From Bryum argenteum (taxonomy: Eukaryota > Streptophyta > Bryopsida > Bryales > Bryaceae), in the NCBI GenBank assembly GCA_037043015.1, contig CM073321.1, positions 3,725,001-3,789,000 of the forward strand: a DNA stretch of 64,000 nt, written 5' to 3'. The notes below the pieces were generated by a model, which worked only from the letters and a program-made list of their open reading frames with translations, was not told the DNA's origin and did not search any database. Made by a program: the position numbers and the translations under genes. Positions within the stretch are counted from its first letter, which is position 1, and each line of letters opens with the position of its first letter. Shown piece by piece: positions 4,001-61,195 of the stretch.

Positions 4001-7000
4001 GTCTCCTTGTAAACCTTTGCAGCAAGGCCTTGAGCCCAAGCTTTTAGTCTCTTCTCATGTGTATGACGTCGCCATTCTCTCATATATAGAGCATGAGCCT
4101 CCTTGTCAACAATATTGGATGATGTAACATTGGAACGGGGAAAAGAATCCCCATTAGAGGGCTCAGCCATAGCAATGATCGTCGCAGGTAAACCTAAGAC
4201 AACGGTACAGTCTCCAATCCATTTTTGAAAATGCTGACTTAATCCATCAAAATCACTACTATCAGTGTCAGACTCAATGACATGATCTATGCTATCCGCA
4301 GAGAACTCCTGCACACAAAAAAAATATAGAGTTTTAGTAATAATCATGAGTGCACACTGGCAAAAAAGAATAATTCACACAACAAATTAAACCATGTTTA
4401 GACTGAAACAAAAAGAGATGGTTGAATTTTGAGCTCAAGAATGAAGAGTAACATATCTAGTGAACATTTCTTCTAGGACTCAAAGATTCAAACAGTAAGA
4501 ACCGGAAACTTTACAAACAAGAGAACATTCAAAACCACTATAGAAACATTGTACGTATAGTTGAGCCCAAGGAAAGCCAGATTTTACCCACTTGCCCAAC
4601 ATGCCAGCTACCCAAACAAATAAGCATCGAATATCATACTGGAGATTCAATTAAGAGTTTGAGGTTCTTTCTATGACAATTGGAAATGCACATTATTTCA
4701 ACCATAAACCGTTTAGCAATCCCACTTCCGTAGAAGCCTATGATAATTAATTTCAATTATTTCAACCGATTTTCCACATTTACAAACTCTTGATCTAACT
4801 AGTTTAGCCCCTACCATTTTCTTGATGAAAAACAATCTAACACACAAAATTTGACCTTCTACTTTAGGCTTAAAGAATCCCAATCTAAGAATTATTTAGA
4901 AGATTTAACCGTAGGATCCGAAATTGAACTTGACATTGTACTCACATCTCAAATATAAACCGTTGATTTTTCTTCATTTGTGAGATTATAATGATCAAAG
5001 TTGGCTGAAATTTTCCCCTATATACGCCCACCCTCGTATATGAGGGTACCTACCACAAGTGGAGTGATGCCCAATTCCAAAGCCCATTGTTTCATATGAT
5101 TACCAACATTTACAAACTTTTGATCTAACTGGTTTAGACTCCCTCCCACCCTCGTATACGAGGATCCCTACCACAAGTGGAGAGATGCTTAAGCACAATG
5201 CCCATGTCCAAAATGTAATCAAAAGAATAGACAAAAATATGATCAACAACTGAATTCTTTACCCAACCTCGTACACGAGGCACCCGTCGAAACTCTATTT
5301 GCTATCCTTCTTCGTAAACGTAATATAATCAAAATCGGTTCAATAGAGAAACATTTTAATGCCTACCTTGCCTCAAAAACAATGAAACAAAATGAATGCA
5401 CCAAAAACTACAATAATTTGCAAGAATGGTCAATTTAATTATATTGAACTACAAGAATATCCTAAATTTAGAAGATTTAAGATTTTGAGAGCATAATGAA
5501 GATTAAATAGTAGCAGATATGACTCCCATTGCTACAACCTCGTATACAAGGTCACCCTGGTTTGACCACCCTCATGTCTGCTTGACCACTCCCTGGTTTG
5601 ACCACCCTCATGTCTGCTTGACAAAATCAAGAAAATAAACAGCATCACGAAGACCAGTACCCGATTCCTTGGAAATACTCGTACACAAGCTCATGCCCCA
5701 TTCATTAATTAGACTGTCAGCATGAAAGGATCAGACAAGCAGAAACATATGTGTGGGCATCCTCGTAGACGAGGGAGCCCTCAAATTCTGATTTCCCACA
5801 TAGTAGCAACCATTTGATCCCACACTCGTACGCAAGGGCACCCCTTCACTCGGTTTACCACGAAATTTTAGGACCAGATCAACAAAAACACGAAGATGAG
5901 TAGATGAAAACGATCACAATTATTAACAGTACCACCACCCATTACTGCTGACCCTGCCCTCATGTCATGAAGACGAGTAGACGATGACCAGCCTCCAACA
6001 CTCCCTCGTGTACGAGGGTACTGGTACAAGTTCACGAATCCAGGGTGTTCTGTTGACCACCACCAAGATCACAATTTCGGGGGAACTTGAACATGATGAT
6101 CTTCACGAAGAACAAATATTGGGGGACCTTAAACACGATGATCATCACAAAATCACGAAGAACTTGAACACGATGATCATCAGAAACAAACGCTTGACTA
6201 CCATCGTACACGAGGGAGCCCTTAACTTGGCTTTTCTCCACACAGCAGCAGAATGATGAAGAAGTTGATCACAATGATCAGACCACGATCACGATGATCT
6301 AGACCACGATTACGATGATCAGTTAACCCTTCAGAGATGCTGACCACGAATCTTAACAGTCTCCAAGCCTCCCTCGTACACGAGGGTAGAAGTAGAAATT
6401 CTAGGACCCAGGTTCAGATCAAACACGAGGTTTACATCATACCCACCCTCGTACATGAGGGCACCCCGCATTCGCTGTTCCACACGAACAACTTGATCAG
6501 GTTGATCACGAAGAACAACTTGATCAGGAAAAAGAGGATCACTGACCGTTACGACTGGCCCTACCCCCATGCCACGAAGTCCAGTATTGGAGCTCCTCGA
6601 GAACACGAAGATGAACAGTATCACAATTTTGAGAAGAACAACATCACCAAGATGAACAGTATGACCGAGTACAATACGTGCGTGACCACCCTCGTACACG
6701 AGGTAGCCTTTCTATTTCTCACACAACAGCGGCACCAAGAAATTTGATCAAGTTGATCACGATGAACACGATCGGTTACTGCTACTCTGCCCCCATATCA
6801 CGAAGACCAGCACTATCAAGATCTTGTCACGATCACAAAGTTGAATAAGAACACAAAGGACAGAATCATGATGACGATGAGAACAGGATCTCGAAGATGA
6901 GTAGATGACGATAAGAACAGGATCACGAAGATGATCAGAATCATTAAAACGTACGCGATCACGAAGATCAGTACCATGCATGCCTTGACAAACCTGAGCC

Positions 7001-9551
7001 AGACTGTGAGAAGAAAATGAACACGATTTTGGTGTGATGACGAAGAACAGGATCACGAAGATTGAATAGGACTACGACAAGCATGATCACGAAGAGCAGT
7101 TCATGAGGGTTTAGGTTGAACAGAATGTAGAAAGGTATGAATTGGTCGATCTTACCTCTTCTTGTGTGTCTGTCTCGGTCTCCAATTTGGCAAGGAAACT
7201 CTATCTTCCTACTTCAATCCAAATGGGCAAAGTTTTCCCACAATTTCTTAGATGCACCCAAAACGAATTCTTTGTCTGAAAGCTCACCACATCGACGTCT
7301 GCATCCTTCCTTCCGCGCTCCAACATTGTGATCTCCCCTCCGACCTGGGTTCGTTCTCCAACCTGAATCTCTCCTCCAATCGGCCCAACCATTACTGTGA
7401 GGATAACTTAGGACGGAAGAAAACTCTACAACTCCTCGCTTCACAAAACAAGAGAGGAAATAAACTTTACAAGCTTTGAATCTTATCAACTAGCTCCATG
7501 ATTGTTTCCTCTTTCTACTCTAAATCCTATTGCTAATCTAGTATCTCTAATCTTAGAATCACCTACTCATGTCTATTCTAATTTTTCTCACTGTCAAAGC
7601 AGCTGTAAAGCCATTCAAGCTATAATACTCCAATTTCCAATCTTAGATTGACTGCCATAAGCCTTTAGCCTCTAATCCCATGCGTTCTCTAACATATTGA
7701 GGATTCCACGATCTTCAATTGCAAAATCTAAATCTAGGGTTTTATTTCGAAGCATGCTCCAGCGACGGCTTAGGGTTGGCAACCAAACTCAGCGCGATGG
7801 CCGTGGAGCCCTACCCCAACGGCTTCACTGGTGCCCCTGCCCCCCGTGGCCGGCATCAAGAGGGCAGATATCCGGCTGGATACCACGCCCGGCATGAGGC
7901 CTGATACCCGGCTGGATACCGCGTCCGCGTACTGCTCGATACCCGGCCTGATACCATGCCTGTATTTACGGCTTTGAGCCCTGCCCGTGTACCCGACTGC
8001 CTCTTACCAGATGCCCCTTTCACGCTCTTAATACTCGTTGCCCGAAAAAAAATGGATATACTACACTATATTTGAATGAAAATTTTGATTTTGTTTTTTT
8101 AACTTTATTATGTTCACATTAACTCCTTGACTTCGATGGGATATTCTAAGGAAGACACACATTACGAAATAAAAAAACATAAAAGGGAATGCAAGCAATT
8201 TAGATCTCAACCGTACACACTTTTAAAAGACTAGTTGTGGGTCACGTGGACCACAAACTCACTCATGAGACCTCATAGAATGCAAGATTACAACTTATTA
8301 GGGCGTAAAATACGCTCTATAATTTCATCATTTCCACTTTGGGATGAAAATACTACTGACCTTTGCAACCAAAAAATCATAAACTATGAAGTTGCTCATC
8401 TTCATCCCAAAAACACACTCGTACTTAAACAAATCATGTTTAAAAAAAAAAATTGGCTCAAATATTGGCCTTTCAATGGTGAAAAATGTCCCAAAGTTTA
8501 CAACGAAAAAGCGGTCAAAACCTGAAACTTTTGCATTCAAATCCATGCCCTACATTCATTATAATTTTTGATTAGGATAAGGAATCTACCACTAAAACTA
8601 ATCTATTACAGGAAGCAATCTCAATTATGAAATTAAAATGTAATGGTGGATAATGAAGATCCAGCTTTTAAAAGTGCATATATTTTTTCACTTATTCCAA
8701 TGTAAAATTAATTTGCACATCCAATACCAATGTCATTTGGATCCGAAAATTTGCAACTAGAAAGACGTTACGATGGATCTAGAAATTGTATGTATGTAAA
8801 AAAAAAATCATTAAAAAACTACAGTTGATTATTCTTCAATTGGTTTAAACGGTAAAAGATGCCCCATGTTTGGGCAAATCAAAGCATATGATGCCTATGC
8901 TATAATGCTTGACATCATAGAATAAAGTTACAAGACCCTCATCCTCCCACGCATATAAGACGAGATACCATCGAGTTAACAAAATAGTTTTACACGAGAA
9001 ACAATTTTTTAATATGTAAAAAGTATCCAAATAAACTATCCAACTATTAAGGGCAAATTTTAATATGTCAATAAAAATTTTTATCACCCAACAATAAGTA
9101 CTTAGATTAGGCAAATAGAGAAGTTAATGTGCAATTGAAAAATTACCAATTCACCCGAATCAACTCCTTGGTCTTCATCGTCATTCTTGGCGTGGTGAGA
9201 ATCACTCTGGGAAGTGCAATACTTTGAAGCAGTAGAGAAGACCTCGTCTATAGTGTTCTCGCAATCTTGCTCTACTTTATTATACCCATCGACCTCTGAA
9301 ACACTCTCTAAGTTAGTAGCTCGTCTAATACACCTCAGTTGGAATGGGGTTGGCTCCGGCCGCTCCGCATTCCCTACAAGTTCGTGCACCTCTCTTGCTC
9401 CATCGCATTTGGATTGAGACACTGACTCTTTCCTCCTCAACGCCACCCGCCTGCGCTGTTTAGAACCACTAAACTTCAAACCTCCTCTCTTCTTCTTCCG
9501 TTTCTGTTGAATGTCTGCACTACTCTCTGGTATTTCAACTATGTCCTTCAT
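1082..9551 (-). CDS. Accessory gene copy 1: nine-exon protein with methyltransferase-like C-terminus
   Basis: The exons I place are 9147-9551, 3853-4308, 3559-3777, 3220-3455, 2485-3142, 2040-2387, 1682-1940, 1417-1601 and 1082-1326. All junctions are GT/AG and phases agree, giving about 1000 residues. Exon 1 is basic (KRKKKRGG). Exon 2 is acidic, then holds the family block ending IAVANPHNGPKFFDE. Exon 6 has IIADAPENL followed by FADVNLTDDGVILLMHP. Exons 7-8 have VFDWSISTGASVIAC, then IGLERDEEIF. That order (motif IV-like before motif I-like) matches beta-class DNA N6/N4 methyltransferases, but DAPE replaces the usual DPPY and DWSISTG the usual DPFxGxG, so activity is doubtful. Damage: in-frame TGA at 2569-2571 and a one-base shift in exon 8 near an ACGAACGA microrepeat. 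The ParB-like segment of copies 2 and 3 is absent. Exon 1 is joined to exon 2 by inference. Confidence 0.6.
5032..6703. repeat. Array of element 1 palindrome CCTCGT-NN-ACGAGG
   Basis: Twelve copies lie here, starting at 5032, 5150, 5267, 5538, 5677, 5761, 5824, 6004, 6202, 6372, 6447 and 6690. Two more lie at 750 and 12367. The arms are CCTCGT/ACGAGG and the centre varies (AC, AT, GT, AG). Spacing is irregular, from about 60 to 270 bp. A GGGAGCCC or GGGCACCCC-like stretch often follows. Because the word is palindromic, small ORFs on both strands repeat peptides such as LVYEG; these are not genes. The array sits in the inferred first intron of the accessory gene. Confidence 0.85.
5640..7110. 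repeat. Degenerate CACGAAGA / GATCACGATGATCA repeats
   Basis: The words ATCACGAAGA, GATCACGATGATCA and GAACAGGATCACGAAGAT recur many times, interleaved with the palindrome array. The stretch is short-period and diverged and has no coding capacity I can support. Confidence 0.6.
7719..7904 (+). other. Short ORF-like segment with MAVEPYPNGF, repeated at 27.6 kb
   Basis: The frame reads GLATKLSAMAVEPYPNGF and then a low-complexity run built on GGATACCNNGCCCGGC (7855-7970). The nucleotide stretch CTCAGCGCGATGGCCGTGG is matched on the minus strand near 27640, where MAVEPFSKG is encoded. It may be a conserved control region or a decayed exon; I do not recognise a protein family. Confidence 0.3.
8150..8850 (-). 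mobile_element. Decayed inverted copy of the 35.4-kb TIR element
   Basis: Several stretches match the reverse complement of 35388-36363. One is the ATCTCAACCGTACACAC region near 8205. Others are the CAAATCCATGCCCTAC run near 8540 and the following TTAGGATAAGGAATCTACCAC. The ends are too diverged to place. It lies inside the inferred intron of accessory copy 1. Confidence 0.55.
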
Positions 9552-10113
9552 GTAGTCTCTAGAACTTAGAACACCACACAGCTCTAGATGTCCACTACTT
9601 CAGCTCTCAAGGTCAAATGATTTTGAATCCTTGCTCCACTCTTACTATATACCTTGTCCCCGGAACTCAGATTCAATTTCAAAATATAATAAAATAGACC
9701 TACAGCCCGCGCATACTATTTTTTTTTACCACCCGTCATTCCAATCTTGAACATCTGACATCCTTCTGTGTTACGGGCTTAAAATAGGATTCTAAATTCT
9801 ATCTTACGCTTAAAGCGCTAAGAATATCTACGCGTCTTCCTGACAATGACGGTCGCCGCAACTTTACACGTTTACATAACACCATTGTGTGATTTGCAAA
9901 AAACCAAATAAGGCTAATTCTAACTCAATGTGACTTACTTTTAGTCATGTAGCAAACTTTTAAACCTACTCTGTCAACCTTTACAGGTGGAGTATACAAA
10001 TGGTTTTATTCATACTAATCTAGGGTTAGAGTTAATAACTATTCAAAATACATATACTCTGCAGAAAGACTTCCATTCTCCTTTCTACTATTGTCGTACC
10101 TCGTTCTATCATC
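9552..10113. promoter_or_regulatory. Shared divergent promoter region of element 1
   Basis: This 562-bp stretch separates the accessory start codon (minus strand, 9551) from the transposase start codon (plus strand, 10114). It holds no ORF and should carry both promoters. I see no clear TATA pair that I would assign. No full palindrome copy occurs here. Confidence 0.5.
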
Positions 10114-13100
10114 ATGGCATCCTTGTCTTCAGAGCTTACTAGTCCGAACGTTGTCGAAATTCTCTCTCCCGGTGCTCCAGTTCCTCTATGCATACCATCA
10201 GGCCCCCAAGGAGTAGCTTACGTAACTGCTCAAGTGTTATCAATTAGATTCGGGTTCGATTCGTCGTCTTTGTCGTTAGAGAAGGACGTTGTGGACCCTG
10301 TCACCTTGAACGTCATGTATTCCATGGTTGTTGAACCTAGTCCAGTGCTTTTGAATGAGAAGGATAGCTGGGATCTTAATACCGGCAAGTACCGCCTATA
10401 CGGATTGTCAGAATCTATAATGGCTGCTTCAACTGTCCTACTGACCCCCCGTAGTTCCTCTACTCTGTCAACGATCACTCCCGTTCTACGTCGTATAAAG
10501 GTCGAACCATGTGAACGTGTTAGCATAGACCTTACTGAGTCATCTGATGACGAGCGCAACACTTCGGTTCCATCTAATTGTTCTCCTCTTCTGCTTCAAT
10601 CCCCGTCTACTACATCTCACTTGTCTACCCCTATCCCTCAACAACATTCCTCACAAACGTCAAAACCCAAAAACATTCTCACCTGCCTCCTCAAGTTAGG
10701 TAGTATGCCTAGTAGCAAGACGATGCTGAAGAAACTAGATTATGCTAACATCCAGATAGTCAGTGTAGTTAGTTTACCACCATCTTTCAATGGTGACATT
10801 TTCTTCATTCTTCCACCCGTTCTTCTATCTGCTGCTAACAAAAATGCAAAATCCATGGATGGAATGGATAAACGTTACGACGGACACTTATGGACTAAAA
10901 CCATGACCACTAACATCTCCAACACCATGAGCTTGACTTTCAGATCTTCTAATTGTGTTGGTTATGTCCAGTGTCGCAATCAGAATTGTCCATTCTTGCA
11001 GAGACCTGAGCGCGCAGCAGAGGTGAACGAAGTTGAGTTCGATGGATCCTCTAAAGACCCATTCGGAGTTGGTGGACCACCTTCTTCCGCATCCACGATC
11101 GTCTGCACGATTTATAAGGAACCTCCTATTTGCGTTGCCGCTTGTAAAGCTAAGATCTATTATATTTTTGGTGATGAAAACCAAGAGCGTGCGTGCGTTC
11201 ATATCGGCAATCACGAACACCCTGTCAAGGTTGGACACTACAGAGGTACAAGGAGCAAGATTGACGAGTTGATCGAAGAACATGTCAAACGCAATCCACA
11301 GGCTCATGTTTCTAAGATTGTCATGGAGGCCAGCAGAGACCTTCTAGGAAACTACCTTTTACGTCAAGAGGACGAGCCTCATACCCACCTATCTTTGAAA
11401 CAACTAGAGCCTGTGTTCGATAGTTGTAAAGACCTAAACTCTCCAGGTATTAGAAACCGTGTCTACACGTTCAGGTATCTAAGGCGCTATGGAGTCATGG
11501 ACGATATTACGAAACTCAGAGGACTCAATAATTGGGCCTTTGTTCAGCGTAACATGTTTCCAGGGCAAGAGGACGACTTGGACAAAGTCTTCATTTTCAA
11601 GATGTCAGAAGTTGGCCGTGCTAGTGGAGTGGACTTGGTCCGGCGGATGCAACCTGGTGGTGATCTAGAGCATGCTTGGATGATGTTTGATCACGTCAAA
11701 CGTGTTATCCACTGGACGACCATGGCATGCCACGTGTACGACTCCAGTTACCAACGAGTACTTACAATTGCTTGTTGTGATTTTATGTCCAAGGATAGAG
11801 AAGCTCAGATTGTTTTTTGGAAGAATCTGAACCATGTGATGTCAAGAAAGCAACAAGAAAGCAACATGTGGGTCCCTAAGCCTCAGTTTCAAGGTTTCAT
11901 GGCTGATAGTGCACAAGCCAATTGGAATGCGGTCCTGATCATATACGGTTCTGGCAACCCTACCGTGCCCATGGAAGGACAAGAGAGGACGTGCTTCTTC
12001 CATTGGTCTCAGTCGCTTGAGAAACACACCAAGCAATACATTCGCCATGAACTACAAGACCAACACAAGCATTTGTGTTTTCAATATAAAAATGCCTCGT
12101 CCATGGAAGAGGCTGAGACACGCTATTTGGGAATCAAAGCATGGTGGACGTCTTCACGCGCTGCTTCCCAGGATGGAGTGAGACATTTGGGGTTTTGGCT
12201 TGCATTCTGGCATTTTCGATATTGCCAATGGGGGGGGGGGTTTATGGAGCTAGTAAGTTCAACCTTACGTGATTCTATGAGTTATGCCTTTTACTACTCC
12301 AGTAAAAAGTAATTTTTTTACTCAATTTTTTAAATTTTTTTTTAAAAATCTATATTTAGGAGGCTCCCTCGTGTACGAGGGAGCCCCCTACCTCCCAAAT
12401 TTCTTGTGACTTTTCTCATCCTCTGTGACCAAAACTTGATGTTCTTGAACGTAGGAAAAACAATACACTCAAGAGGAGTTAGCGGAGATGCCATCTTGCA
12501 ATCTTGCTGAGTCCGTACACAACAAATGGCTTCAAGCTTCGGGCAACAAAGGTGGAGACCTGTACGTTGCAGCCGTGGACGATTACATTGTGGTGGTGGC
12601 TTATTACCAGTACCTCAAAGGCGGAGCGGGTGGTTCTGGACCGTCGAGGGAGGAACTTCGACTTCGAACAGCCCAACGACGTGCGCACCGCACTGGAGAT
12701 CCTTCCTCCCTTAACAAGGCAGTCCTTGAGATGCCTGGAGCCGAAGAGTTCTGCACTCGTGATACACATCACGAGGGAGCTGAGGTTTTCGGTTCCATTA
12801 AACGAAAGGCAGATGTTCCCATTGGCGCTGAAGAAGAAACTCATAGACCGGACACTGTGAACTTCTCCCGACCTAAGGTAGGAATTAGAGTCACTCGAGC
12901 ACGAGCTCATACTTTGAGCACAATTCATGAAGAACATGAAGTGGAGGAAAGTCCAGCACAACCTTTGAGCTCCGATGGGTCTGATATTTGTGGCGTCAGT
13001 GTTGTGCAAGAGACTCGAGTGAACGAGAAGCTATGGCATATTGCCCGTGTCGGTAAGCATTCCGCTAAAGCATGTTGGGCACAAATGGCTGTAACTAGGA

Positions 13101-13903
13101 ATAAATGTACCGCCCGGATAGTCCTAAACGGGAGGAGCACCCCAGCTCCAACTTACACCGGAGTTTGGAACCACCCTCAGAAAGCTCCCCGCAAGGTGGT
13201 ACAAGAGTTCTTCTTCTGTGCAGATGATATTGAGAGGTGCGTGAAGGGATTTCGTCGTAGGTGGATTGAGCCCTTCAGCGAGACGGATGAACGACCGCCT
13301 ATCCCTTTGGTTTGGCCTGTGAAAATCGGGACCAATCTCACGCGTGGTGAAATTGATGCATTGAAGAATGCCGGATTTCAACTTCCTCAAAAGGAGCGTG
13401 TCCCTGTAAACCGAACGTTTACGAATGGTGCTCCACCTCGTGATTTGTCCAATGTTCCTGTACCGGATAACGCAGATGTTTTTCCGAAGACGCGAAACTC
13501 CAAGACCATCCGTCGCTCATGTCCGACAGCCTCGTCGAAGCAAATGAAGAACATATACTTTGCCAAGGCGATGAAGGCAACCATTTTGAAGGTGACTATG
13601 ATCCCCGAACCCGGTTTTGGATGTGTCGTTACGTTGCAGTCTAAATCGCCTCCGACTGAGTCGATCTATCAAGTCTCGATCAGCTTGTTCCCGGAATGCA
13701 ATTGCCCAACATTCAAAGAGACAATGGCTAAGTTAGGTAGACGTGGGAACCCGTATAAAAACTGCAAGCATCTCTACTTTATTCTAGAGTCAGTCTGCAA
13801 ACTAGATGTCGAAATGGATCTCTTCATGCATGCGGCTACCCTTAGTTTCAACGAGGTCAAGACAATTCTTGAGAGGGGGGTACTAGACCACGTTACTTCT
13901 TAG
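10114..13903 (+). CDS. MULE-family transposase of element 1
   Basis: There are two exons, 10114-12252 and 12455-13903, joined in phase 0 across a GTAAGT...CGTAG intron, giving 1195 residues. The order matches MULE transposases. First comes a C2-H2 zinc finger of the WRKY-GCM1/FLYWCH type (CRNQNC about 287, HIGNHEHP about 365). Then comes a DDE core with D526 (MMFDHVKR) and D598 (FMADSAQANW), followed by CFFHW (CxxH motif). After that come NLAESVHNKW at the start of exon 2 and a C-terminal SWIM zinc finger (CNCPTFKE...CKH). I do not fix the catalytic Glu; one candidate is in GGFMEL. No stop or frameshift is seen, and the poly-G at 12231-12240 is in frame. Role: cut-and-paste transposition of element 1. 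Confidence 0.85.
12253..12454 (+). other. Transposase intron carrying a palindrome copy
   Basis: This 202-bp intron contains CCTCGTGTACGAGG at 12367-12380 within GGAGGCTCC...GGGAGCCCCC. So the element-specific word occurs in introns of both divergent genes and never inside an exon that I can see. Confidence 0.7.
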
Positions 13904-14319
13904 TTCACCCCAGTCACTTTATCTACTAGTTTACTCTCTATAGTTTTTCGTATTGGCTAGACCTATAAACATTATGTAACACGATATATCTAAACATTAA
14001 TATATATATATGAATACCATGTTTTCCGTGTCACAGTCGTCACTAATTTTGGATATATGATGAATTGTCCAAGTGATCAAACTCGGTTCAATTTGTTGTG
14101 AACAAGGTGTCTTCACCACAAAAGATCCAAAGTATATGCCCATAAATTCCACTATTATAGGTACTCAGATCCACGGTAATAGGTGAGAATCTTGCAAATA
14201 TTCTTGAAAATATCCGTTTTTGAAATTTTAAAAAATATTTTTAGTAATTTTTTTACTATTAATAACTTTTCCTTGCTAAAAAATTTGAAATTCAGCGCTC
14301 ACCGCTCAATGCTCACGCC
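13904..14319. repeat. Right subterminal region and right TIR of element 1
   Basis: This is AT-rich non-coding DNA after the transposase stop, with a TA microsatellite near 14000. It ends AAAAAATTTGAAATT followed by CGCTCACCGCTCAATGC and GCTCACGCC. The same AAAAAATTTGAAATT lies just inside the left end of element 3 (inverse at 51623-51637). Confidence 0.7.
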
Positions 14320-20000: not shown

Positions 20001-20196
20001 GGCCTCCACAGTAAAGTAAAAGAAATAAAAAGTAAAAAAAGGAAAAAGGAAAAGAAGATGAAAAAAAGAATCTGCTGTACGTTCACTGGTCCCTTCCTAA
20101 TCTCCCTCACTAATCACTTTGAGTGATTACTCTCAATCATTCCTCGCTAATCACATTCACTAATTTGTTCATGAGCATGACGAAGACTGCCCTTCT

Positions 20197-20704
20197 TTGA
20201 GACCAGCTTTGACCATTCCTTGGTGTGAAGATTGGGCACCAACTTTTTCAGGTGAACAGACGATTTTGGATGATGATACATTCCAAGGATTTGTAGAAAA
20301 GTGCAACTCTAGAAAGGAGCATCGTCACAGAGAGAGGCTGCATGTGATCAACTCTGACCAAATCAATGTATTCAAAGAATCATTCACCTTGGATCGATTC
20401 AAATGCCGAAGTCTCCACACTTTCTTGAAGCAATAGCATGATTTTCTCATAACCTCCTTATCAAAAAGAAAAACCTCTGTCCAACATTCAAAAATCATAA
20501 AGAGTAGGACGGAACATGAACTTTTTCATACAAAACGGTCCAAATATAAAAGATCACTGCATACCACATTCTTTGTCATTAATGATCAAGGACTTGCTAT
20601 CCCTCCGAGGCCTTCAACTACAACTCCCACCTCTTGCTGAAGACCCTTCGAAATTAGATAAACTCAAAGTTTTGGTGGCTACTGTTAACCGGGTATTTAC
20701 CTAG
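20197..20704 (+). other. Decayed ORF fragments, possibly of a hAT transposase
   Basis: Two adjacent short frames (20197-20436 and 20516-20704) read RERLHVINSDQINVFKESF and HCIPHSLSLMIKDLLSL. The second faintly resembles the C-x-x-H-x-LNL-x-x-KD region of hAT transposases. Evidence is weak and no catalytic residue is seen. Confidence 0.2.
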
Positions 20705-20847
20705 CCAGTAATCCTGTAGTTACTGGACCAATAGTCTGGACTTTCTGGGTTACCCTAAGTCTGATTTTGGATGTAATCTGATGGATGGATGAAATCATTA
20801 GGGTTTGGAGACCAGGTGGCGGCTAGGGTTTGGGGAGCGAGGGCTCT

Positions 20848-20916
20848 CTCTCTCTCTCTGGAAGTTGTAGCTAGAGCTAGGGTGTGTCTGTGTGTGTGTT
20901 TGCAAGTGTGTGTGTG
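20848..20916. repeat. CT and GT microsatellites
   Basis: A run of CT dinucleotides near 20848 is followed within 40 bp by GT-rich repeats (20884-20916). Confidence 0.8.
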
Positions 20917-21169
20917 AGTTGAATAGAGGAGATAACTACTGCTTTAGACATATATCTAGAAGGACCAGGGAGTGGACTGCCACGCGCAGAAGTTATCTGT
21001 ACTATCATGAGTTTTCAATGAAGTATGTTTGGATTTGTGTGTAAATGTGTTGGAACGTGATTCTAAGTTTTCCACTCTGGAGTATAAGAGGAATAGGGTT
21101 AGAAAGTGGGGTTGATAAGTAGTATTGTTAGAATTGTAGTACCATTGTGGTACTGTCTAGGGCTTGTAC

Positions 21170-21745
21170 GGGTACTGCCCAAGTCAGTTTCGAAGTTGGT
21201 TCAGGGCCAACTTGAAAGTCAGTTCAGGACCAGTTTGAAGTCTAGGGCAAGGTCAGTCAATGTCCAGGCCAGTTTCTGGTTCTATTCAAGATAAGTCGGG
21301 AATCTAGAGCAAGACCAATTTTGAATCTAAGACAATTTTAGGACTAGGCTAAGACAAATTTGTGATCCAAGGCAGGACCAGCTTTGAGTCTAGTCCAGTT
21401 CCAAGTCTAGACCACGACATGTTTAGGGTTCAGGCTTGGACCAGTTTGGAGTCCAGGCGAGGACCAGTTTGAGGTTTAGGCCAGAACCAGTTTGGAGTCT
21501 TAGGTAGGATCACTGTTGAGTCTAGGACGATTTCCAGTTTCAACAGGGACCAGTTTGGGATCCAGTTGGGGGTCTAGACCAGTTTGGGAACCAGTTTGGG
21601 GTCCAATTTGGGGACCAGTTTGGGGTCTAGTTTGGGGTCGAGAGCAGTTTGGGGGACCAGTTTGGGGGACCAATTTGGGGTCCAGTTTGGGGTCCAGACT
21701 AGTTTATGGGACCAGTTCGGGGACCAGTCTGGGGGTCAGTAGATA
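21170..21745. repeat. GGACCAGTTTGGGGTC minisatellite
   Basis: Units of the type GGACCAGTTTGGGGTCCAG repeat with increasing regularity toward 21745. Left of 21500 they decay into AAGTCTAGGNCAGGACCAGTTT variants about 20-45 bp apart. Frames through it are repetitive and not genes. Confidence 0.8.
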
Positions 21746-22491: not shown

Positions 22492-22619
22492 ATCGGAATT
22501 ACTATGATAGTAGTAAATTTATTGACCATTAGAATGTATTGGAGGTCGCATCTTCGCCGTTGGAAGTGTTGTTGTCAGTTTAGGTAGTTACCATTGATTG
22601 GATTGGGCGACCCACAACT

Positions 22620-25680: not shown

Positions 25681-25689
25681 GATGATACA

Positions 25690-51105: not shown

Positions 51106-51570
51106 TGTAGTATACATCTTTTTGGTGTATGAGCATGTTTTTGACTTTTCATGTAATGAAAGCTTGTATTACCTTTCATTTTCCTTTCTAAGTGTGAATT
51201 AGAGTCCAAATGAGATTAGAAGGGAAACTAGGTGAAAAGATAGCAAGTGAACCGTCATAAGTCAAATGAAAAGGTATGAGTTGTAAAATTGAGAATGCAA
51301 TTAGAAAAGAAGTGGTTATTTTCCTCTGAACACATGCAAGAGAATGTGTATCCCGCACTCGTAAAAGTGTGATTAAGTTTAAGTTTGAATTTGAAGAATT
51401 GTGGAAGAGAGAATTCAAACGATTGTTGTTTTAACAACAAGTGTAACATTGTTAAGCAGCACTTGACGAATGAATCAAGTATTGATTAATATAAACTTAG
51501 TTTTATACACATTGCATGTGTTAGGGAAGAATTGTGAATATTAAATTGTGGAAATTATGAATGAGCGTTT
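51106..51570 (+). repeat. LTR-like repeat copy B, truncated by element 3
   Basis: It is closely similar to 26908-27365 over about 455 bp. The match stops at GAAATTATGAAT (51562), about 12 bp before the terminus of element 3. It is probably the 3' LTR of the element that carries the coiled-coil ORF. Confidence 0.65.
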
Positions 51571-51574
51571 CTAT

Positions 51575-51631
51575 GGCATGAGCGTAGAGCGTAGAGCGTG
51601 GAGCGTGGAGCGTAGAGCGTACAATTTCAAA
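51575..51631. repeat. Left terminal repeat of element 3 (GAGCGTA units)
   Basis: GGCAT is followed by six or more GAGCGTA/GAGCGTG 7-bp units. The last base of the unit differs from element 1 (GAGCGGT), so the terminal word has drifted together across units. Confidence 0.7.
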
Positions 51632-51665
51632 TTTTTTGAGCATTGAGATATTGTTTTTACAAAAT

Positions 51666-51696
<31 letters not shown>

Positions 51697-51899
51697 CTAA
51701 TAAAAAGGGTATATTCTACAAATTATTCGAATATTCCTTCCTGATGACCGTGGAATTTAGTACCCATAACCGTGCAAAATGGGCTTGAGATTAGAAAAAA
51801 ATTGATCTGTGACCAAGTTTTAAAGGGAATAGAAGACTTCATTGAAGAGGATTAAACGGCCACATGTTTTCGAAAGGACCAAAAGTGAAGGTTTATGAC

Positions 51900-51995
51900 A
51901 AATGATTAAGAAATTTAAACATAGCTAGAAATATATATATATGTATATATGTATTTATATATACATATATGTATGTATAACTATATATATAAATG
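51900..51995. repeat. TA/ATGT microsatellite
   Basis: ATATATATATGTATATATGT and similar words run over about 80 bp in the subterminal DNA of element 3. Confidence 0.8.
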
Positions 51996-52091
51996 TATTC
52001 ACTAAATTGTGAATTTACATAGAGTTGCGTACTTCATACTTATAAATGTAGAAGAACGTATGTAGAAGACTAATAAGGACAAGTCGTGACT

Positions 52092-52415
52092 CTAAACAAA
52101 AGCATGGGCTAAGATCCCACTCTCGAGAATGGTTTTCAACACATTGAAACTGAGGGTAGGCGCATGCATGAAGAGGTCATAGTCGGCCTCTAGTTTGCAG
52201 ACTTGTACATAGACATAGTAAAGATGCTTACAAGGTTGGAATGGTTGCTCACGTTTACCGAACTTAGACATTGTCTCCTTAAATGCCGGGCAATTGCAAC
52301 TCGGGAGGGCACTACACCTGCTATAACGAGCATAGAATTTTGCCACATTATAAACTTTCCGCTGTACACCTTGTTGCACAGATTGCCATTCTTCTTCTCT
52401 GCCGCGATGGCGCAC
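52092..52415 (-). pseudogene. MULE transposase C-terminal fragment (SWIM finger)
   Basis: The minus strand reads CNCPAFKETMSKFGKREQPF, CKHLYYV, then DLFMHAPTLSFNVLKTILES. This matches CNCPTFKETMAKLGRRGNPY, CKHLYFI and DLFMHAATLSFNEVKTILER of element 1 almost position for position. About 1000 N-terminal residues, including the DDE core, are missing. Confidence 0.85.
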
Positions 52416-52826
52416 GTCTACTAGAACTGGAGCTGTGAGTTCAAGGAGAACTCGTAGTGTCCCCTGGCCACATCAAAAAAACCGTTAACCTCTAAGAAAG
52501 ATCCAAACTACAATACACCGAGAATGTTACACAATTTGAAGCAATATTGAAGAGAAGCTTTATGCTATAACCGACTAGATGTGCAAGAAACAGTTCTCGA
52601 TCCGAAAGACTCAGTTGAATGTGGCATGGAAAACAGGGTGTCAATCGAAACGGACATTGCCTGGGATGAATGAGATGCACATCGGGATGCTTGAGGAGGT
52701 CAGAATCACATTGGATAGAAATTAAGATTGAAGCCTAGGAAGTTGTTCTAGATGACCACTTTGACGTTGTGGGCGGGGTCGAATGGCCTCGGAAGATCCA
52801 TGGCAGCTGCAAATTGAACTAGAGCG

Positions 52827-53080
52827 ATGGCGACAGAAGCTACAAAACATGCCGAAAGACGAGCCATGGCTTCGACAAACCTGCAAGAAAGCTCCACACC
52901 GATCACCCTGTTGATGCAAGACTACATTCAAAGAATACTCAGAACCAGAAGTTTAAAGAGACCAGAACATGAACATTTCAAAAAAAACTCCAAACGATCT
53001 TCTATTATGGAGAAACCAGAGCTCGGAATGGAGACCTGCTAGAGAGCTGAGAATGAAGAATGAAGTGGTAAGGATGCAGG
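52827..53080 (+). other. Possible decayed exon 1 of accessory copy 3
   Basis: A short basic frame, MATEATKHAERRAMASTN, continues to KNSKRSSIMEKPELGMETC and a stop. GTAAGG follows near 53069. Its position between transposase remnant and palindrome array equals that of exon 1 in element 1, but I see no sequence match, so this is position-based inference. Confidence 0.2.
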
Positions 53081-53639
53081 CGAGGGTGCCTGGGCTTTAT
53101 ATTGTTGGAATTGGGGTCATTGTGGTTGTGCTTTATGTGATTGTGCAAAGTTTTGCGCAAGTTTTCCAAGTAACAGCGACATAGATAGCATGTGCCAGAA
53201 GGCATATGCTTCATTGATATCTGCTTCGTGGGAAATGAGGATCTGCATGGACATCGTCCTTGACTTCAAAAATGCAGCTGATAGCATCTAAAATTTCTAG
53301 CGCGGTTCAAAATCATATAAAGAATGAGGAGCTTAATAAGAAAGTACAACCTGAAATGAAAGTCTTGTGCTTAAATGAAAGTCCAAGTGAACCTTAAATT
53401 GAAAGTCTTGTGTGAAAATTAACTTGATGGAATTTCATCTAATCATTTAGGTTCTTCATGAAATTTCTTGATGATCATATAGGTTGAGGGCTTAGTATGA
53501 TTATTTTGTGAATTTCATCACTTACAACAACTAACATTTGAAGGAATGAGTGAGTCCTTGTTTTATACGAGGTCCATCAAAAAGTTTAACAAAGACTAGC
53601 CAATCGCATACACAAATCTATATTTTAATATATGGTAAG

Positions 53640-54440
53640 GCTCTTTTCTAAGTTGGTCTTGTGGTTTGTTGTTAACAATCATATTCCTTGATCCTTTTTA
53701 GTTTAACAGTTGAATGGTTAAAACAAAATTATCAGATCTCATTTGGTAAATTAGTTTATTGGTTATTACTAAATTCTAAATGGTCTTGTACCCCAATGTT
53801 TTACGATCACATAATCTAATGTGAGATGGTGTTGTAGTCAAAATGGTTACATTTAAATTTCCATCCTTACTGGTTTTTTGTTCATAATAATATTAGAAAA
53901 TAATATTTCCTCATCTCAGTTGGTGTAGTAGTCCCAATTACAAAAATTAATCAATTTTTACTGCCGATGGTCTTTTATTCCACCATTGGAAAATCACATC
54001 ATTTTCCCAATCAGAGTTGATGGTATAGTCTTGATAGTGACGATCAAATTTAATTCTTGTTAGCCAGCCTTCTAGTCAACTGTTTAAAAATCTCATTTCC
54101 CAATCTCAGACGGTGTTGTAGTTTCAAACTTTCAATAGTGATACTCAGTCAAATTTTCCATCCTTAGTAGGATCCGATTGTTTGAAGATTCCATTTCCTC
54201 ATCTCAATTTGTGTAGTAGTTTTTTTATTGATAGTCCAATTCTTCATCCTTCTTGGTCTCCCCGATGTGTTGAGTATTTAAGAATCACATCTTTTTTCCA
54301 ATCTCAATTGGTGGTGTAGTCCTAATAGTAATAGTGGAATTTTTAATCCTTGTTGGTCTCTCAGTCCTATCCTCTATTACTATTTGATGCTTGTTGGTCT
54401 CTCATTGATTTTTAGCATAACAATAATTTCTCATACGACA
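53640..54440. repeat. Degenerate tandem repeats of about 97 bp
   Basis: The block TCATCTCAGTTGGTGTAGTA followed by GTC, then CCATCCTTNNTGGTCT, recurs near 53730, 53825, 53920, 54005, 54105, 54205 and 54300 with many changes. No coding potential. Confidence 0.65.
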
Positions 54441-54589
54441 TGATTTTGTAGTTTGAAGTTGTTATTCACAAAAAATGAATAATTAAAAAGTTTAGTGGCT
54501 TACTATGCACATACAAACTACGTGCTAGGTGGAACTTGTAAATAAAATCCATGTGTTCTTCAATATTTTTTAAATATTCAATCTATAAA

Positions 54590-55880
54590 CAACCCAACCT
54601 TTTTTTAGCCAAAAAAATATATTTTCAAAAAATGTGTCATAGATGGAAATGAACACAGGCTATATAGATCTCAAGTTCTCAACTGTACAAACTTGGTGAA
54701 GGCCATGTAGAGCGAATCTTGAGTCATAAGGCCTCATGAATTGTGAGACCATCACGTATTAGTACCACAAAGAAGCTTGTACCATTCATCAATTTCACTT
54801 TAGAGTGTCAAAAATATTACCAAATACCAACAAACCGATCGCAATAAAAAATCTACCAACCAAAAAGTAGTTTTCCTCCATCTCAATAACACCATTCTAC
54901 AAAAAAAACTCATCAAATATAATTTCTTGGCTCAAATTATAGCCTTGCATTGGTGAAAACTGCGAAGAAAACATAGTCCAAAAGTAGACCCCTTGCACTC
55001 AACTCCATGCCTGATCTTGAGAACTTCTTTGATCTTGTAAACTTCTTTGATCTAGCAAAGATTCTCACCTCTAAAACTACTCTAATTAAAATCTATCCTT
55101 AGAAGTACTAAAGTTGAAATCTAATGGGGGATGAAAGCGCTATAGCTCCTCAAAAATCATCTTTTCTTTTACTTCTTTCATTGTAACCTCAATTTTGTTA
55201 AAATGGCACTATGCCATGTGCCATTTTGTCACACCAAATCTTACATATGTGCTCTTATGGAATGGTATATTTTATAATATCACAATTTATCAAATAATAT
55301 CACTCCTTTATATACATTGTCATTCATTTTTCATAATATCACCATCAAATTCTGTTATATCACTATGGTTCAAAAAGTTGAGGTGTGCCATTTTACCAGA
55401 ATAATGCCATTTTAATGGAATTGGGGTTTTGTAGAAACATGATTGCATATCCAACATTAAATTTTATGGATGAAAAATCTACTAACTAAAAACTTGTTGG
55501 GAATCATTTAAAAATTACACTTATGAAAAAGAAAAAAAAGAAAAAAAAGAAAAAAAGAAAAAAGAGGAAAAAAAAATTCCAATATATAAAATAAAATAGA
55601 AAACTATGTTTGATTTCACAAAATTTAGATTTGCAATAGTAAAGCAAGTTTAATGTTTGAAGACCCTCAAACAAAAGCTACCTTTACTAATATGCATGCC
55701 ATTAATTCATAATTTATTTGATTGGTTGCTTCAATGCACAAACTTGACTTCATTTGGGACCAAACCTAGTTGATTTTGTCTAGAAAAGTTTAGATGAAGA
55801 AGTTATGGCACTTCAAGTTTCTGCCCTTCATTAAAAAATGTAGAAAAACAACATTAGGGACATATAGGGGTTATTAACTA
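54590..55880 (-). mobile_element. Inverted, diverged copy of the 35.4-kb TIR element
   Basis: The reverse complement follows 35388-36363 throughout: TTTTTTAGCC at 54601, GTACAAACTTGG at 54687, CAACTCCATGCC at 55000 and GTTTCTGCCCTTCATT at 55818. It ends GGACATATAGGGGT at 55872. It contains a nested 0.25-kb insertion. Confidence 0.75.
55186..55431. mobile_element. MITE nested in the 54.6-kb TIR element
   Basis: Comparison with 35760-35790 shows extra sequence exactly between CATTGT and AGAAACAT. It starts AACCTCAATTTTGTTAAAAT and ends with the imperfect inverse (ATTTTAATGGAATTGGGGTT). A short TTGT occurs on both sides. No ORF. Confidence 0.65.
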
Positions 55881-57387
55881 TATGTTTTAGTACCTAAGTA
55901 ATGTGAATATATACATGTGTATCAAATAGAATATTTGAATCTTTTACACTATTTGTAAGATCATATTGTTCAAAGCTAAGATGGTAAATTATTTCTATAG
56001 AATGGAAAACAACTATTTTGGAGTCAAAAATATCCATCTTTGATAGTTGATATGACTCGAGGCCTTTCAAATTCAAATTCTTATTCAGTAATAGCTCTAA
56101 AAATACCAATTAACCCACATAAGAGTATAAGACCTCTAAAACCTAGCGAAAAGCTAAACTCCTCACTTGGATACAAACTCGAATTCAAAAGCAAGGCTGG
56201 TTTGGGAAATAAAAACAAGAGACTTAAAACAAATTTTGTATTGACTAGTGGAACATTTTAAGACTTGTATTGAATATAGTAAAAGTTCAAAGTTTAATGG
56301 TATATATGTTTAAATTTTGCACTTTTCTGCAAAAAAAACTATGAATGTATGGTTATACCAGGTCGTGGTGAAACTGGGAATCATGTCTTTCCATTTTGAA
56401 AGCTAGCATGCACCGATTAGATGTTGCAGTGAGTAGAACGATCACCGTTAGTAGTTTATCAATTTCTTTTGTGACAATACTTGTCTTCAGCGTCTTTCCT
56501 GTTCTGATCGATTTTAGGGAGCACTTGTAAATTTCGGGGAGAGGGCTGCGCCAGCGCAGGCACCCTCCCCCTCGAAAGTATGCCGTGGTTAGCAGTCCAG
56601 TAAATCAGCTGATGCGTCGTTTCGTTTTCCGGCACTTTGGCTTTCAAAGCGCATGTAGCAATTTTTCACTTGTCTAACAGCTGAGCTGCCCTCGGGAATG
56701 GTCACTTATTAGATTGCCGAGTGAGAGAGACGACAAATAAGTCTGCATCTGGTTGATCCTGGTGTTCGGTAAGCGAAAGCTCGCCTGCGTTGCAGAATTA
56801 TTTGCAGCTCTTCGATGCACTTGAACTTCATGTCGAACTGTCGAATTGTCGAAGCCCGACAAACTTGAAATACACAAATCATAGAGGTAATGAAACCTGG
56901 ACGGGGCCAAATACCGCATACAAGCTCCTTCGTCAGGGACTCGCTCGACATGATTGTTGGAGAGCCCAGAGCAGTACTGGATCCTCTCTTTCTTCACTGG
57001 CATAAATGAACCGGCATGATTCCACTTCCGCTTCGCATGTGCGGCACTGCCAACCAGCAGATCATGCAACGCCATAGCTGCTTCAATCACTACAGATACT
57101 AAAAGTTTACGTGTGTTGCATTCTACGTCAATTCTACATGAATACTGAACAGTAACCGCTCGGTTAACTGTAGAGTGCCAGACTCCGAAACTACGTGAGG
57201 ACGCAGCTGCTGCAAGAACTAATCAGATCTAATGAATACGCTTAGGTGGAATAAAACCATGTCGAAACTGTCCGCAAGCCTCAGAACCACGTGTTCACCC
57301 CGACTGAGCAGAAGGTGTACACAACTGCAACAACTGATGCCTAAGTAGAGGAAGCATGACTGTTCTGACAAATACTAATCTAACATC

Positions 57388-57475
57388 TGAGTAGTGAATG
57401 CCTTAGCTTTTCGGATCGACTACTTCAATCTGATCCTCATTCGCGCACTTGAGTCTGGTCAAGAGTGTGTGAGCC
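57388..57475. repeat. Dispersed repeat, copy at 59232-59318
   Basis: GAGTAGTGAATGCCTTAGCT through GCGCACTTGAGTCTGGTCA recurs at 59232 with few changes. It belongs to the repeat-rich non-coding part of element 3. Confidence 0.75.
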
Positions 57476-59087
57476 AAAAAACCACCATGGAGTGGCCTTT
57501 GGTCACAAGGGGATTGACAAGAACAACATATGAAGAGAAAAACAACGTAGAAGAGAAGACGAGAAGAAATGAAGAAGAAACAAGGGGAAGTGAAGAAGAA
57601 AACCCCCGCCGGCCTCCTTTTAACCCTCTTCCGGTTCGTGGCTTGCCATCGCTTCATCTTAGCTCCGATTTGGGCGTGCCATAGCTTTTTGGAAAGCTAA
57701 GTCAATTTTGCACTCACCCCCAAAATCTCAGAAGCATAGGATCAAAACTCGAGGACTGATGGCCAAAATACTGGGACCTACTTCTTTTAACCGCCGGCGG
57801 GAAAACCCTTCAACACCCCCAACTTTGGAGGGGTGTTTCTCCCTCTCTAAAGATCGGATTGGCGGCCATATACCCTTGGAAAGCTCTTTTGGAGCTCTAC
57901 TTACCCTAGAAATCTCAATCGCATAGAGAGAAAACTCCGTGACTGATTGCTGTTTGAACACAGCTAATTTGTTCACTGCCGGGGGGAAACCGTTTTTGAC
58001 ACCCCGACTTTGCGAGCAAATTTCTCCTTCTCTACAACTCGGATTTGAGCATGCTTACTACCATTGAAAAGCTCTACTAGAGTTCTATCTACCTTAAAAA
58101 TTGCAAAGGAGTTGAAGTAGAATTCAGTGAGTTATAGGGGAAACAATCTGGCTGGCTTTCATGGGGCAAGAACAAGCTCCTATCTTAACAAAGGAACTCA
58201 ATAAGGAGGAAGATGAGTGAGGCAAGACAAGCATTTTGAGAAGGGCTCTCCTATTCCTAATTACTAACACTTCAAAAGCAAGATCATTTTGAGAAGGGCT
58301 CTCCTTCTCCTAACTACTAACAATTCAAAAGAGATGATCAAGGTGAACAAAGAGGAGAAGGAGGCCCATAGCCTTCCTCCTCCTAACTAAATAGATGGAT
58401 AGGTAGGTGAACAAAATGGAGGAGAAGGAGGCCCAAGGCCTTCCTTCTCCTACTCTAACTAGATTGAGTGGGTGATGATAGCTTGGAAACAAGCTATTAA
58501 GTACAAAATGAGAGCCGCCAAAGAGGCGGCTCACCCTAAAGCCTAACTAAGGCCTAAGCCCTAACTAAAGCCTCCATGGATGAATAACCGCCACTCCACG
58601 TGCTCCGTCCTTGAAGCCTCCATTCCATCAACCACTTCATCAATGAATGTAGCCTCACATGCTACCACAAGGTTAGATGGATGAGACTTACAACAATCAA
58701 TTTTCAAACACAACATGGACATCAAAGACTAGTTGTACAAAGCCCATGGTAAAACGCTCAATTCTAATTTAAGCAAATAACCCTATTTCTAATTTAGGAT
58801 TCACTAGGGGGAATTTTTCCTCCTCTAGTTCTTCTCCATCATCAATTGGATCCACTAGGGGGAATTTTTCCTCCTCTAGTCCTTCCACACCCTAAAGCTT
58901 AAATTAGTCTTAAACGTCCCATCAAAGGCCTTGCAACAACTAACCCCTAATATACAAATTGCATTCAAAACTAAATTATTGTATATTCATCAATTTACCT
59001 CAAGATGTCATGGTTTGCAAACACTTCATTAATAAAGGTCATTATTAACAACATTTAAACAAGATAGCGCTCTCACGCTCTCATAGA

Positions 59088-59480
59088 GTGCGGTGCGAAT
59101 GCTTTTCTTTCTTTGAGCTTCACTCAGGCTGCTACTGAGCCGCTTGTCACTGCGTCAGTCTCACTTTCGAGGACCCCTGCATTGGCGCAGGGGTTCCTTC
59201 TTGGGGACACAATCATGAACGGGGTCTTTTCTGAGTAGTAAATGCCTTTGCTTTTCCGATCGACTACTTCAATATGATCCTCATTCGCGCACTTGAGTCT
59301 GGTCAGGAGTGCGGTGCGAATGCTTTTCTTTCTTTGATCTTCACTGAGGCTGCTACTGTCACTGCCTGAGTCTCACTTTCAAAGACCCTGCGTTGGCGCA
59401 GAGGTCCCTTCTTCTGGGCACAATCATGAACGGGGTCTTTGCTCTTCGCTCCTCATTTGCGCACTTGAGTCAGGTCAGGA
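59088..59480. repeat. About 215-bp tandem duplication containing palindrome copies
   Basis: GTGCGGTGCGAATGCTTTTC through AATCATGAACGGGGTCTTT occurs twice (from 59088 and 59308). Each unit carries one CTGCNTTGGCGCAG. Confidence 0.8.
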
Positions 59481-60654
59481 CTTTTTTGTAGTTTATTTTT
59501 TTGTCTGTAGATCGATGCTGTGGTGCAGCTGTTGGACAGTTCGAAAGACATTCAATTGTTGGACATGGAACGTTGTCGAGAAGGCGAGAGATGGATCTCT
59601 TGCTCGAGGTATTCTTCACGTTTGTTCCATTTGCCAAGAACATGGAGCCAGGTTTGTTGGCGCCGTCGATAAGGGTCATGGTTGATCATGCGTCACTCTT
59701 GGATTGCTGCCGTCAGTTGCTTAATTTTACCGTACTGCCCTTCGTTTTCTAGCTAGCTGCTTGGTGAAGGCAATCGGAGCACCAGCCGCTTTGTTGCACG
59801 GCGTGATGAGTAGCAATCTGTGCATCGACGAGAAGTGAGCGGGGATTGCCAGCCCAGAATTGCATTGGTAGCGTGACACGGGCACGCACAGAGAAAAGAG
59901 TTGGCAGAGGAGTGTTTAGTCCCACGTGCACAATTTAGGGAGCACTTCTGAATTTTGTGGAGAGAAGGCTGCGCCAGCGCAGGCACCCTCCCCCCTCGAG
60001 AGTACGACTCGTTAGATGGTCTAACGTGGTTAGCAGTCCAGTAAAGTGAGTATCAAGAAAGAGTTCGTCATGTTAGAGTTAATCTTGGACGAGCTTTTGG
60101 TTTTTTGATCGTACGATTTCTGGAAGGTGAGTGCTTCTTGAATACACTTGGAGTGTAATTTTCATCGATCGCAATGCGGCAATTAAGCAATTAGAAGACA
60201 TTTGGTGCAGTTCCATGCTTAATTTTTGCTTCTAATTAAGGTGTCGGATTTATGAACTCTGATGATGTAGCAAGCGGCGAGTAGAAGACTTCCTTCATAG
60301 TTTAGAAGGTTTTGGTAGCAGTTCCGTGCCTAGTTTCTCTTCTGATCAAGGTGTTGGATCGATGGACTCTGATAAATTTGAGCGAAGTTGGAAGCGGCAA
60401 CCAGAGTCCCACGTACACAGTTTAGGAAGCACTTCTGAATTTTGGTGAGAGGGCTGCGCCAGCGCAGGCACCCTCCCCCCTCGACAGTACGACTTGTTGG
60501 ATGATAGCGCTTGGGATTCAATGCACAAATTCACAGAGAGGATTCACTTGAGTGTTGGGTCAGTTTCTATGTTGATATTCTAATAGTTTAGTGACATATC
60601 AAATCACATTCTTCCTTCTTATGGTGGTTTTATTTGAAATTGGTGAACTGTAAT

Positions 60655-61195
60655 GGTGATTTTGTTATACGTAAACTGATTTTGTTGAATGAAGAGTGAA
60701 CTCTGGAGAGGGCTGCACTAGCGCAAGGACCCTCCCCCTCGCCCTTTGGGGTTGCAATTTCTATGCACGTGAATTGTGATTTTGTTGACTGAAGAGTGAG
60801 CTCGGGAGAAGGCTGCGCCAGCACAGGGACCCTCACCCTCGCCCTTCAGGGTTGCAATTTCTATGCACTTGAACTGTGATTTTGTTGAATGATGAGTGAC
60901 CTCGGAAGAGGGCTGCGCCAGCGCGGGGACCCTCCCCCTCGCCCTTCGGGGTTGCAATTTCTATGCACCTGAACAGTGATTTTGTTGAATGAAGAGTGAG
61001 CTCGGGAGAGGGCCATCGCATGCAGAGGCTTCCCTGCAACGCAACTGCTTGGGCATTTGGAGGCTCACTCCAATACCCTCCACCGCAAGTATGTTGCCTT
61101 TTGAGTTTGCAATTTCTATCCACCCGAACTGTGATTTTTTTGAATGATGAGTGAGCTCGGGAGAGGGCTGCGCCAGCGCAGGCAACCTCACCGCT
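60655..61195. repeat. About 103-bp tandem repeats carrying the element 3 palindrome
   Basis: GTGATTTTGTTGAATGAAGA, GTGAGCTCGGGAGAGGGCTG and CCCTTCGGGGTTGCAATTTC follow one another in four to five units. The unit at 60975-61120 lost the palindrome and has an insertion instead. Confidence 0.8.

Follow-up and report, generated by a model that had tools for sequence, protein, structure and literature searches.

Subfamily-sorted palindromic words beside a methyltransferase-like accessory gene in probable Mutator-like elements: candidate recognition sites of an element-encoded protein

We call the whole 64-kb stretch of DNA analysed here (C1:3725001-3789000) the window. An earlier note had described in it three elements with three different palindromic words of one design, a picture that is largely borne out and beyond chance. 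The elements are not simply side by side, since one of them (E1) lies nested inside the accessory gene of another (E2). E1 (~13.9 kb; 385..14331) is inserted in an E2 accessory exon, has the ends AGGGGAACGCACAGGCGTGAGCGG and GGACGTTACTGTGGCGTGAGC, and is flanked by a 9-bp target duplication with one mismatch, recognised by eye (CTCAGATGG at 376..384 and CTCAGATGC at 14332-14340); break-points of its alignments fall at 429-436 in three copies and at 14333 in one copy, and for the E1 copy in L007-L008 a script search of the flanks found no target duplication. E3 (~15.2 kb; 51563..64000, running on to 66777, i.e., L006:2777) has the ends GAGCGTTTCTATGGCATGAGCG and GGGGAAAGTTGCAGCATGAGC and an exact 10-bp target duplication (AATTATGAAT at 51553..51562, with its second copy at 66778-66787 in L006). 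The ends of E1 and E3 resemble each other, and tandem heptamers of the GTGAGCG kind are found at the left end of E1 and at both ends of E3.

The transposase reading frames of E1 (757 and 482 aa) lie on the plus strand at 10039..13903, and a SWIM-like C-x-C-x(20)-C-x-H pattern stands near the C terminus; FMADSAQANWNAV...TCFFHW and CNCP...CKH, read by eye, are candidate motif stretches. Mutator-like element (MULE) transposases carry a D..C-x2-H motif together with a C-terminal SWIM motif of the form C-x-C..C-x-H. Neither the window frames nor 15 aligned members matched the Pfam MULE domain, and the Pfam SWIM match in the window frames remained below the cut-off (E 0.27). The target duplication of about 9 bp expected of MULEs is present at both E3 and E1. 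E3 retains a C-terminal transposase piece (52104..52313, minus strand) that is 61% identical to that of E1, with no other E3 pieces detected, and neither the window nor its flanks yielded an E2 transposase; the divergent arrangement of transposase and accessory gene is thus full in E1 alone and partial in E3. The transposase frame has 28 homologs in other records among 8,000 candidates (30-68% identical), and its second frame shows a pN/pS of 0.51 among E1 copies, the first frame having given no value.

The E1 accessory gene (1487..4374, minus strand) includes three methyltransferase-like exons (1487-1588, 1680-1922, and 2046-2387). No ParB-like exon was found in the window copy: compared with L008, L009, and L010, it lacks ~1.5 kb at 4039/4040 that contains this exon in those copies. 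In the E1 copy at L007-L008, the ParB-like exon comes first, followed by the middle exons and then by three methyltransferase-like exons. The 5' part of the E2 accessory gene (14302..16224, minus strand) comprises part of the ParB-like exon (15868-16224), with stops, and middle exons; interrupted by E1, the gene resumes at 229-390 and in L005. The E3 accessory gene (61935..64000, plus strand) begins with a ParB-like exon (61935-62483) containing three TGA stops, followed by middle exons, one with a further stop, and by methyltransferase-like exons downstream in L006. Accessory exons of the three window copies are 27-52% identical in pieces. Among E1 copies, the accessory gene is under purifying selection (pN/pS 0.33-0.66 over six stretches). 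A candidate 5' coding exon of the E1 gene at 9102-9599 (pN/pS 0.86 in three copies) was unsupported and set aside.

Judged by profile similarity and motif order, the C-terminal domain of the accessory protein resembles beta-class (N6/N4) DNA methyltransferases but its catalytic motif is altered. Pfam N6_N4_Mtase (PF01555) is matched by the joined E1 C-terminal part at 3.6e-5 (24.3 bits, with a cut-off of 26.7), the E1 C-terminal part matches NCBIfam CcrM at 0.0011, and a PHROG methyltransferase family matches at 6.8e-7 in a scan of the E1 part only. A profile built from the E1, E2, and E3 methyltransferase parts retrieves DpnA (0.0048); the P450 entries that come next, at 0.064, we take as noise. 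Taken by itself, the C-terminal part of E2 has no match in Pfam or NCBIfam. The order of motifs is that of the beta class, with D-x-P-x-N (motif IV) preceding [FC]D[WF]Sx(S)T (motif I), the latter lying across an exon border. The standard catalytic form of motif IV is [DNS]-P-P-[YFW], which the accessory protein does not have: four aligned rows read D-x-P-[EN]-N (ADAPEN, ADLPEN, ADVPEN, and ADVPNN), and other copies have ADAHEN, ADVPGN, AYVPEN, and ADVPKN. This altered and variable motif places methyltransferase activity in doubt.

The N-terminal exon, which has the pattern YEGNHR, possibly encodes a ParB-like domain: 7 of 22 members match the ParB-like family phrog_1033 at E values up to 1 (best 0.0027, a weak match), and no ParB match was found in Pfam or the PDB. 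In a tree of 62 such exons, E1 (22 rows) and E2 (20 rows) each form one group with full support, in a bootstrap that had not settled. The joined 954-aa accessory protein has no homolog among 7,997 scored candidates; the single ParB-like exon has 26 among 30 candidates in other public records. Because relatives of both this exon and the transposase occur in other public records, the family probably extends beyond this genome. No relatives in viral contigs or in bacterial and archaeal genomes were confirmed by tblastn, and phage relatives of the E2 methyltransferase-like part were rejected as not significant (best E 0.5), 7 of the 10 matches listed, out of 49 records, being annotated as methyltransferases.

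The word arrays are real and beyond chance, with corrected counts: for each of eight arrays, 200 Markov simulations gave on average 0.0000 full sites. We tolerated mismatches in the counts because exact counts understate decayed arrays. For CCTCGT-NN-ACGAGG, the earlier note had counted 14 copies in E1, where we find 8 exact copies and 12 within two mismatches; 14 is the total for the window within two mismatches, two of them (at 15823 and 48626) outside the element. Ten sites, six exact and four with one mismatch, form the E1 array at 5032..6703. Two single E1 words stand apart, at 750..763, 3' of the accessory gene, and at 12367..12380, between the two transposase reading frames; they lie within longer near-palindromes of ~36 bp (738-775 and 12355-12392), which belong to the two arms of the inverted repeat I4. 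The E2 word, TTTCGT-CA-ACGAAA, had been credited with 11 copies, and its array (17470..22099) is a decayed one, with 1 exact copy and 9 within two mismatches when the centre is CA, or 10 with any centre. The nine copies given for the E3 word, CTGCGC-CA-GCGCAG, can be recovered within two mismatches if any centre is allowed, only four being exact; the array lies at 56546..61181. The commonest exact 6-2-6 palindromes of the window are those with arms CCTCGT (8) and CTGCGC (4), and the next has two copies. All arrays lie 5' of the accessory gene, the two single E1 sites being exceptions; the absence of any full word from another element holds for exact copies and fails for look-alikes with two mismatches, such as an E2-like site at 5310 within the E1 array and the E1-like site at 15823 within E2.

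Half-sites are paired almost exclusively at one distance. In four E1 arrays, 68 of 76 half-sites lie inside full 6-2-6 sites (12/17, 22/22, 20/20, and 14/17), compared with 8/12 in E3, 2/12 in the decayed E2 array, 10/16 in L074, and 6/6 in L076. The pairing of arms across a 2-bp centre suits a binder that is a dimer. We compared 61 E1-like sites within two mismatches, representing 60 distinct 38-mers and including one site (L010:681) outside the element: the arms are maintained although many of the sites have different flanks, and the centre is AC, GT, AT, or GC in 56 of the 61. Seven of 19 changes from the E1 consensus are C-to-T or G-to-A at CG positions, which is not a strong excess and would suit decay of methylated CG.

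Across the genome (258.8 Mb, 25 contigs), whose gene content suggests a plant and perhaps a moss, we counted each word against its reversed form as a control, finding CCTCGT-NN-ACGAGG 341 times (14 reversed), the E2 word TTTCGT 464 times (32 reversed), and the E3 word CTGCGC 99 times (3 reversed). Rather than being evenly scattered, the words are clustered, and most of those listed lie near accessory copies of their own subfamily, in line with the association that had been predicted for word and accessory gene. This comparison uses the first 50 listed sites per word, all on C1, and a distance of at most 12 kb; accessory searches scored the best candidates only, so that the absence of a copy is weak evidence. 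The E1 word lies near an E1 accessory copy at 40/50 sites (null, ~1%), near E2 alone at one, and near none at nine, seven of which are in L011, a stretch that itself aligns to E1. For the E3 word, 37/50 are near an E3 copy (null, ~1%), four near E4, and nine near none, E4 being a mixed bin of copies with varied identities that are neither E1, E2, nor E3 and do not make up one subfamily. The E2 word with centre CA is near an E2 copy at 17 of 26 listed sites (null, ~2%), near no listed copy at nine, and near E1, E3, or E4 at none. Listed TTTCGT sites with other centres divide differently: with CC, 7/16 are near E4, one near E2, and eight near none, five of these partnerless sites falling no more than 8 kb from a further accessory copy, identified afterwards at C1:2840251; with CG, 2/6 are near E4 and four near none; and with CT, 2/2 are near E2.

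Seen from the accessory copies of the listed range, the exact own word is present within 12 kb of 5/5 E1, 11/18 E3, and 12/21 E2 copies. Close accessory copies share their word, as in these 5/5 E1 copies and in the 7/7 E3 copies of the C1 listed range with 86-88% identity to the window exon (the window copy being additional, and one 89% copy falling beyond the range), and the word is present in 3/10 E3 copies at 72-84% identity. The 7/18 E3 and 9/21 E2 copies that lack an exact word count against our preferred reading and, specifically, against a simple form of word-protein co-evolution. In the mixed bin E4, TTTCGT-CC accompanies 2/36 copies, TTTCGT-CG 2/36, and TTGCGT-CG 6/17.

We sampled five new stretches (L072, L073, L074, L075, and L076) for further words. 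L074 (E4, C11) contains five copies of TTTCGT-CG-ACGAAA, sharing its arms with E2 and differing only at the centre, which likewise argues against simple co-evolution. In L073, next to a copy with 81% identity to E3, the E3 word occurs four times, each time altered by one or two changes. L076 lies next to a copy that shares 40% identity with E1 across a single exon and has three copies of TTGCGT-CG-ACGCAA. This fourth word of the same design, TTGCGT-NN-ACGCAA, occurs 807 times genome-wide (4 reversed). Of its first 50 listed sites, 38 are near no listed accessory copy: 23 have the centre CG, 12 of them near E4 copies, and the other 27 are all near none. These 27 sites on C1 may belong to another subfamily, to unlisted copies, or to another element. 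No word arrays were found in L072 and L075, two of the five stretches, and in L072 a CACTA-like insertion occupies the place expected for the array. This insertion (approximately L072:580-1560; C1:20130600-20132400) is non-autonomous, starts with CACTATAAGAAAA, and bears AGACAT repeats towards each of its ends, 17 of them in L072; L075 has AATGTCT repeats of a similar kind.

The arms CCTCGT, TTTCGT, CTGCGC, and TTGCGT all match YYKCGY, and in each of them CG occupies the same pair of positions. Enrichment does not extend to any sequence of this form: the one-base neighbours CTTCGT (42 vs. 49 reversed) and CTGCGT (10 vs. 25 reversed) are not enriched, ruling out such a generic grammar for both neighbours tested.

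We consider it probable, at roughly 60%, that a dimeric element-encoded protein, most likely the accessory protein, reads the words of its own subfamily in these Mutator-like elements. The system would be a Mutator-like DNA transposon whose transposase and accessory genes run in opposite directions, and the palindromes between them, 5' of the accessory gene, would be recognition sites of that protein. The accessory protein would be the likeliest binder, with its possible ParB-like domain, middle region, and beta-class methyltransferase-like domain; by keeping its own word on a fixed CG-N4-CG frame, each subfamily would confine the protein's action to its own copies, and the likeliest effect would be either that host silencing is kept away locally or that both promoters are self-regulated. 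From sequence, we infer the ParB assignment, the identity of the binder, its binding as a dimer, and the anti-silencing effect alike. Judged on accessory sequences from three subfamilies, the earlier note's proposal of a dimeric recognition protein co-evolving with its word gains from the clustering of words, their sorting by subfamily, the paired arms, and the further word, and loses from the arms common to E2 and L074 and from copies without an exact word. Sorting by subfamily points to an element-encoded binder, and we rank the accessory protein before the transposase and the transposase before a host factor; the same sorting is also expected of any conserved non-coding sequence inherited with the element, which counts against the reading. 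So do the listed words with no accessory copy nearby, the E3 words near E4, the two sampled stretches lacking an array, the weak ParB match, the E2 C-terminal part that matches no family, and the altered motif IV.

It is possible, if unlikely, that the words are binding sites of the transposase, like subterminal repeats elsewhere, and that the accessory gene has another role. The transposase is element-encoded too and its family also diverges, as the identities among its homologs indicate, and of the two single E1 words one is found 0.4 kb from the left end, the other within the transposase gene. The main arrays, however, are internal, that of E1 being separated from the left end by at least 4.6 kb and from the right end by at least 7.6 kb, and the ends bearing tandem heptamers carry a different repeat. 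We give a rather low likelihood to host transcription factor sites, for example of a NAC dimer, that would drive the elements and have been inherited in different forms by the subfamilies. TTGCGT is indeed described in the consulted part of PMC4081100 as a distinctive specificity of ANAC092, SND1, and NST2, but palindromic NAC sites are searched for there as CGT-N7-8-ACG, not CGT-N2-ACG; this misfit in spacing led us to reject NAC dimer sites (PMC4081100 and PMC4844398, as excerpted). In addition, the E3 word lacks CGT, and the lack of enrichment of CTTCGT and CTGCGT is a further point against a host factor.

That the words are passive, functionless repeats spread by tandem duplication is highly improbable. 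Some arrays do lie wholly or partly in tandem repeats: the E3 array in a 100-bp repeat (60677-61013, partly), that of L074 in one of ~190 bp, and that of L076 in one of 330 bp. Yet the E1 arms hold where flanks differ, half-sites pair almost only at one spacing, and several different words share one frame. As an extension of the preferred reading, in which the accessory protein binds the words, it is conceivable but doubtful that this protein places 4mC or 6mA in or beside the CG of the word, pre-empting host CG methylation; if so, the transposon would itself write a mark that protects its own subfamily, and the word would change in step with its writer.

Among known systems, VANC/VANDAL of Arabidopsis comes closest in what the available portions of PMC5735166 and PMC10398659 describe: a MULE-type element with an accessory gene and a short motif that forms arrays in non-coding DNA, frequently through tandem repetition, and differs between related families. 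Here, too, a subfamily-specific motif is arrayed in non-coding regions, with exceptions among the listed sites. Those portions report binding and hypomethylation for VANC, and a VANC21 motif (YAGTATTAY) that is non-palindromic and in one orientation, in contrast to the 6-2-6 palindromes and fixed CG-N4-CG frame found here. The accessory protein described here has a methyltransferase-like domain, and its build looks unlike VANC, judged from descriptions of VANC. On a comparison by description only, the system would work like VANC, yet we do not file it as VANC.

Bacterial and phage ParB-methylase fusions, such as Bce_0392 of Bacillus cereus (PMC5512222, in part), likewise combine ParB-like and N-methyltransferase-like domains; the present case differs in being a plant-like nuclear transposon with introns, a middle region, a weak ParB call, and an altered motif IV. 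DNA methyltransferases are also carried by eukaryotic retrotransposons, as C5-cytosine enzymes according to the part of PMC5890265 consulted, whereas here an N6/N4-type domain is carried by a DNA transposon that has a word array of its own. The 4mC methyltransferases of bdelloid rotifers and Marchantia, as covered in the excerpted text of PMC8885841, are bacterial-type amino-methyltransferases in eukaryotes, with Marchantia 4mC sitting at CpG; there the gene is a host gene and the rotifer motif is SPPY, whereas here the gene belongs to the element and the motif is altered. No published description of this transposon family was found among the listed results of the literature searches. If our reading is right, plant transposons would have a second way of directing sequence-specific control at themselves, one that involves a methyltransferase-like accessory protein, and a YYKCGY half-site frame with four variants in one genome could reveal which residues read which bases and how addresses change.

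The remainder of the window holds further repeats and reading frames of other kinds. A GC-rich tandem repeat (22580-23130) has periods of 28, 102, and 130 bp, another (42220-42533) has periods of 30, 61, and 122 bp, and a 300-bp pair (26941-27240 and 51138-51437) is 95% identical at a distance of 24 kb. By eye, Ty3/gypsy-like reading frames can be recognised at 29467-35346, and hAT-like and pogo/CENP-B-like reading frames at 40035-42075 and 45758-49448.
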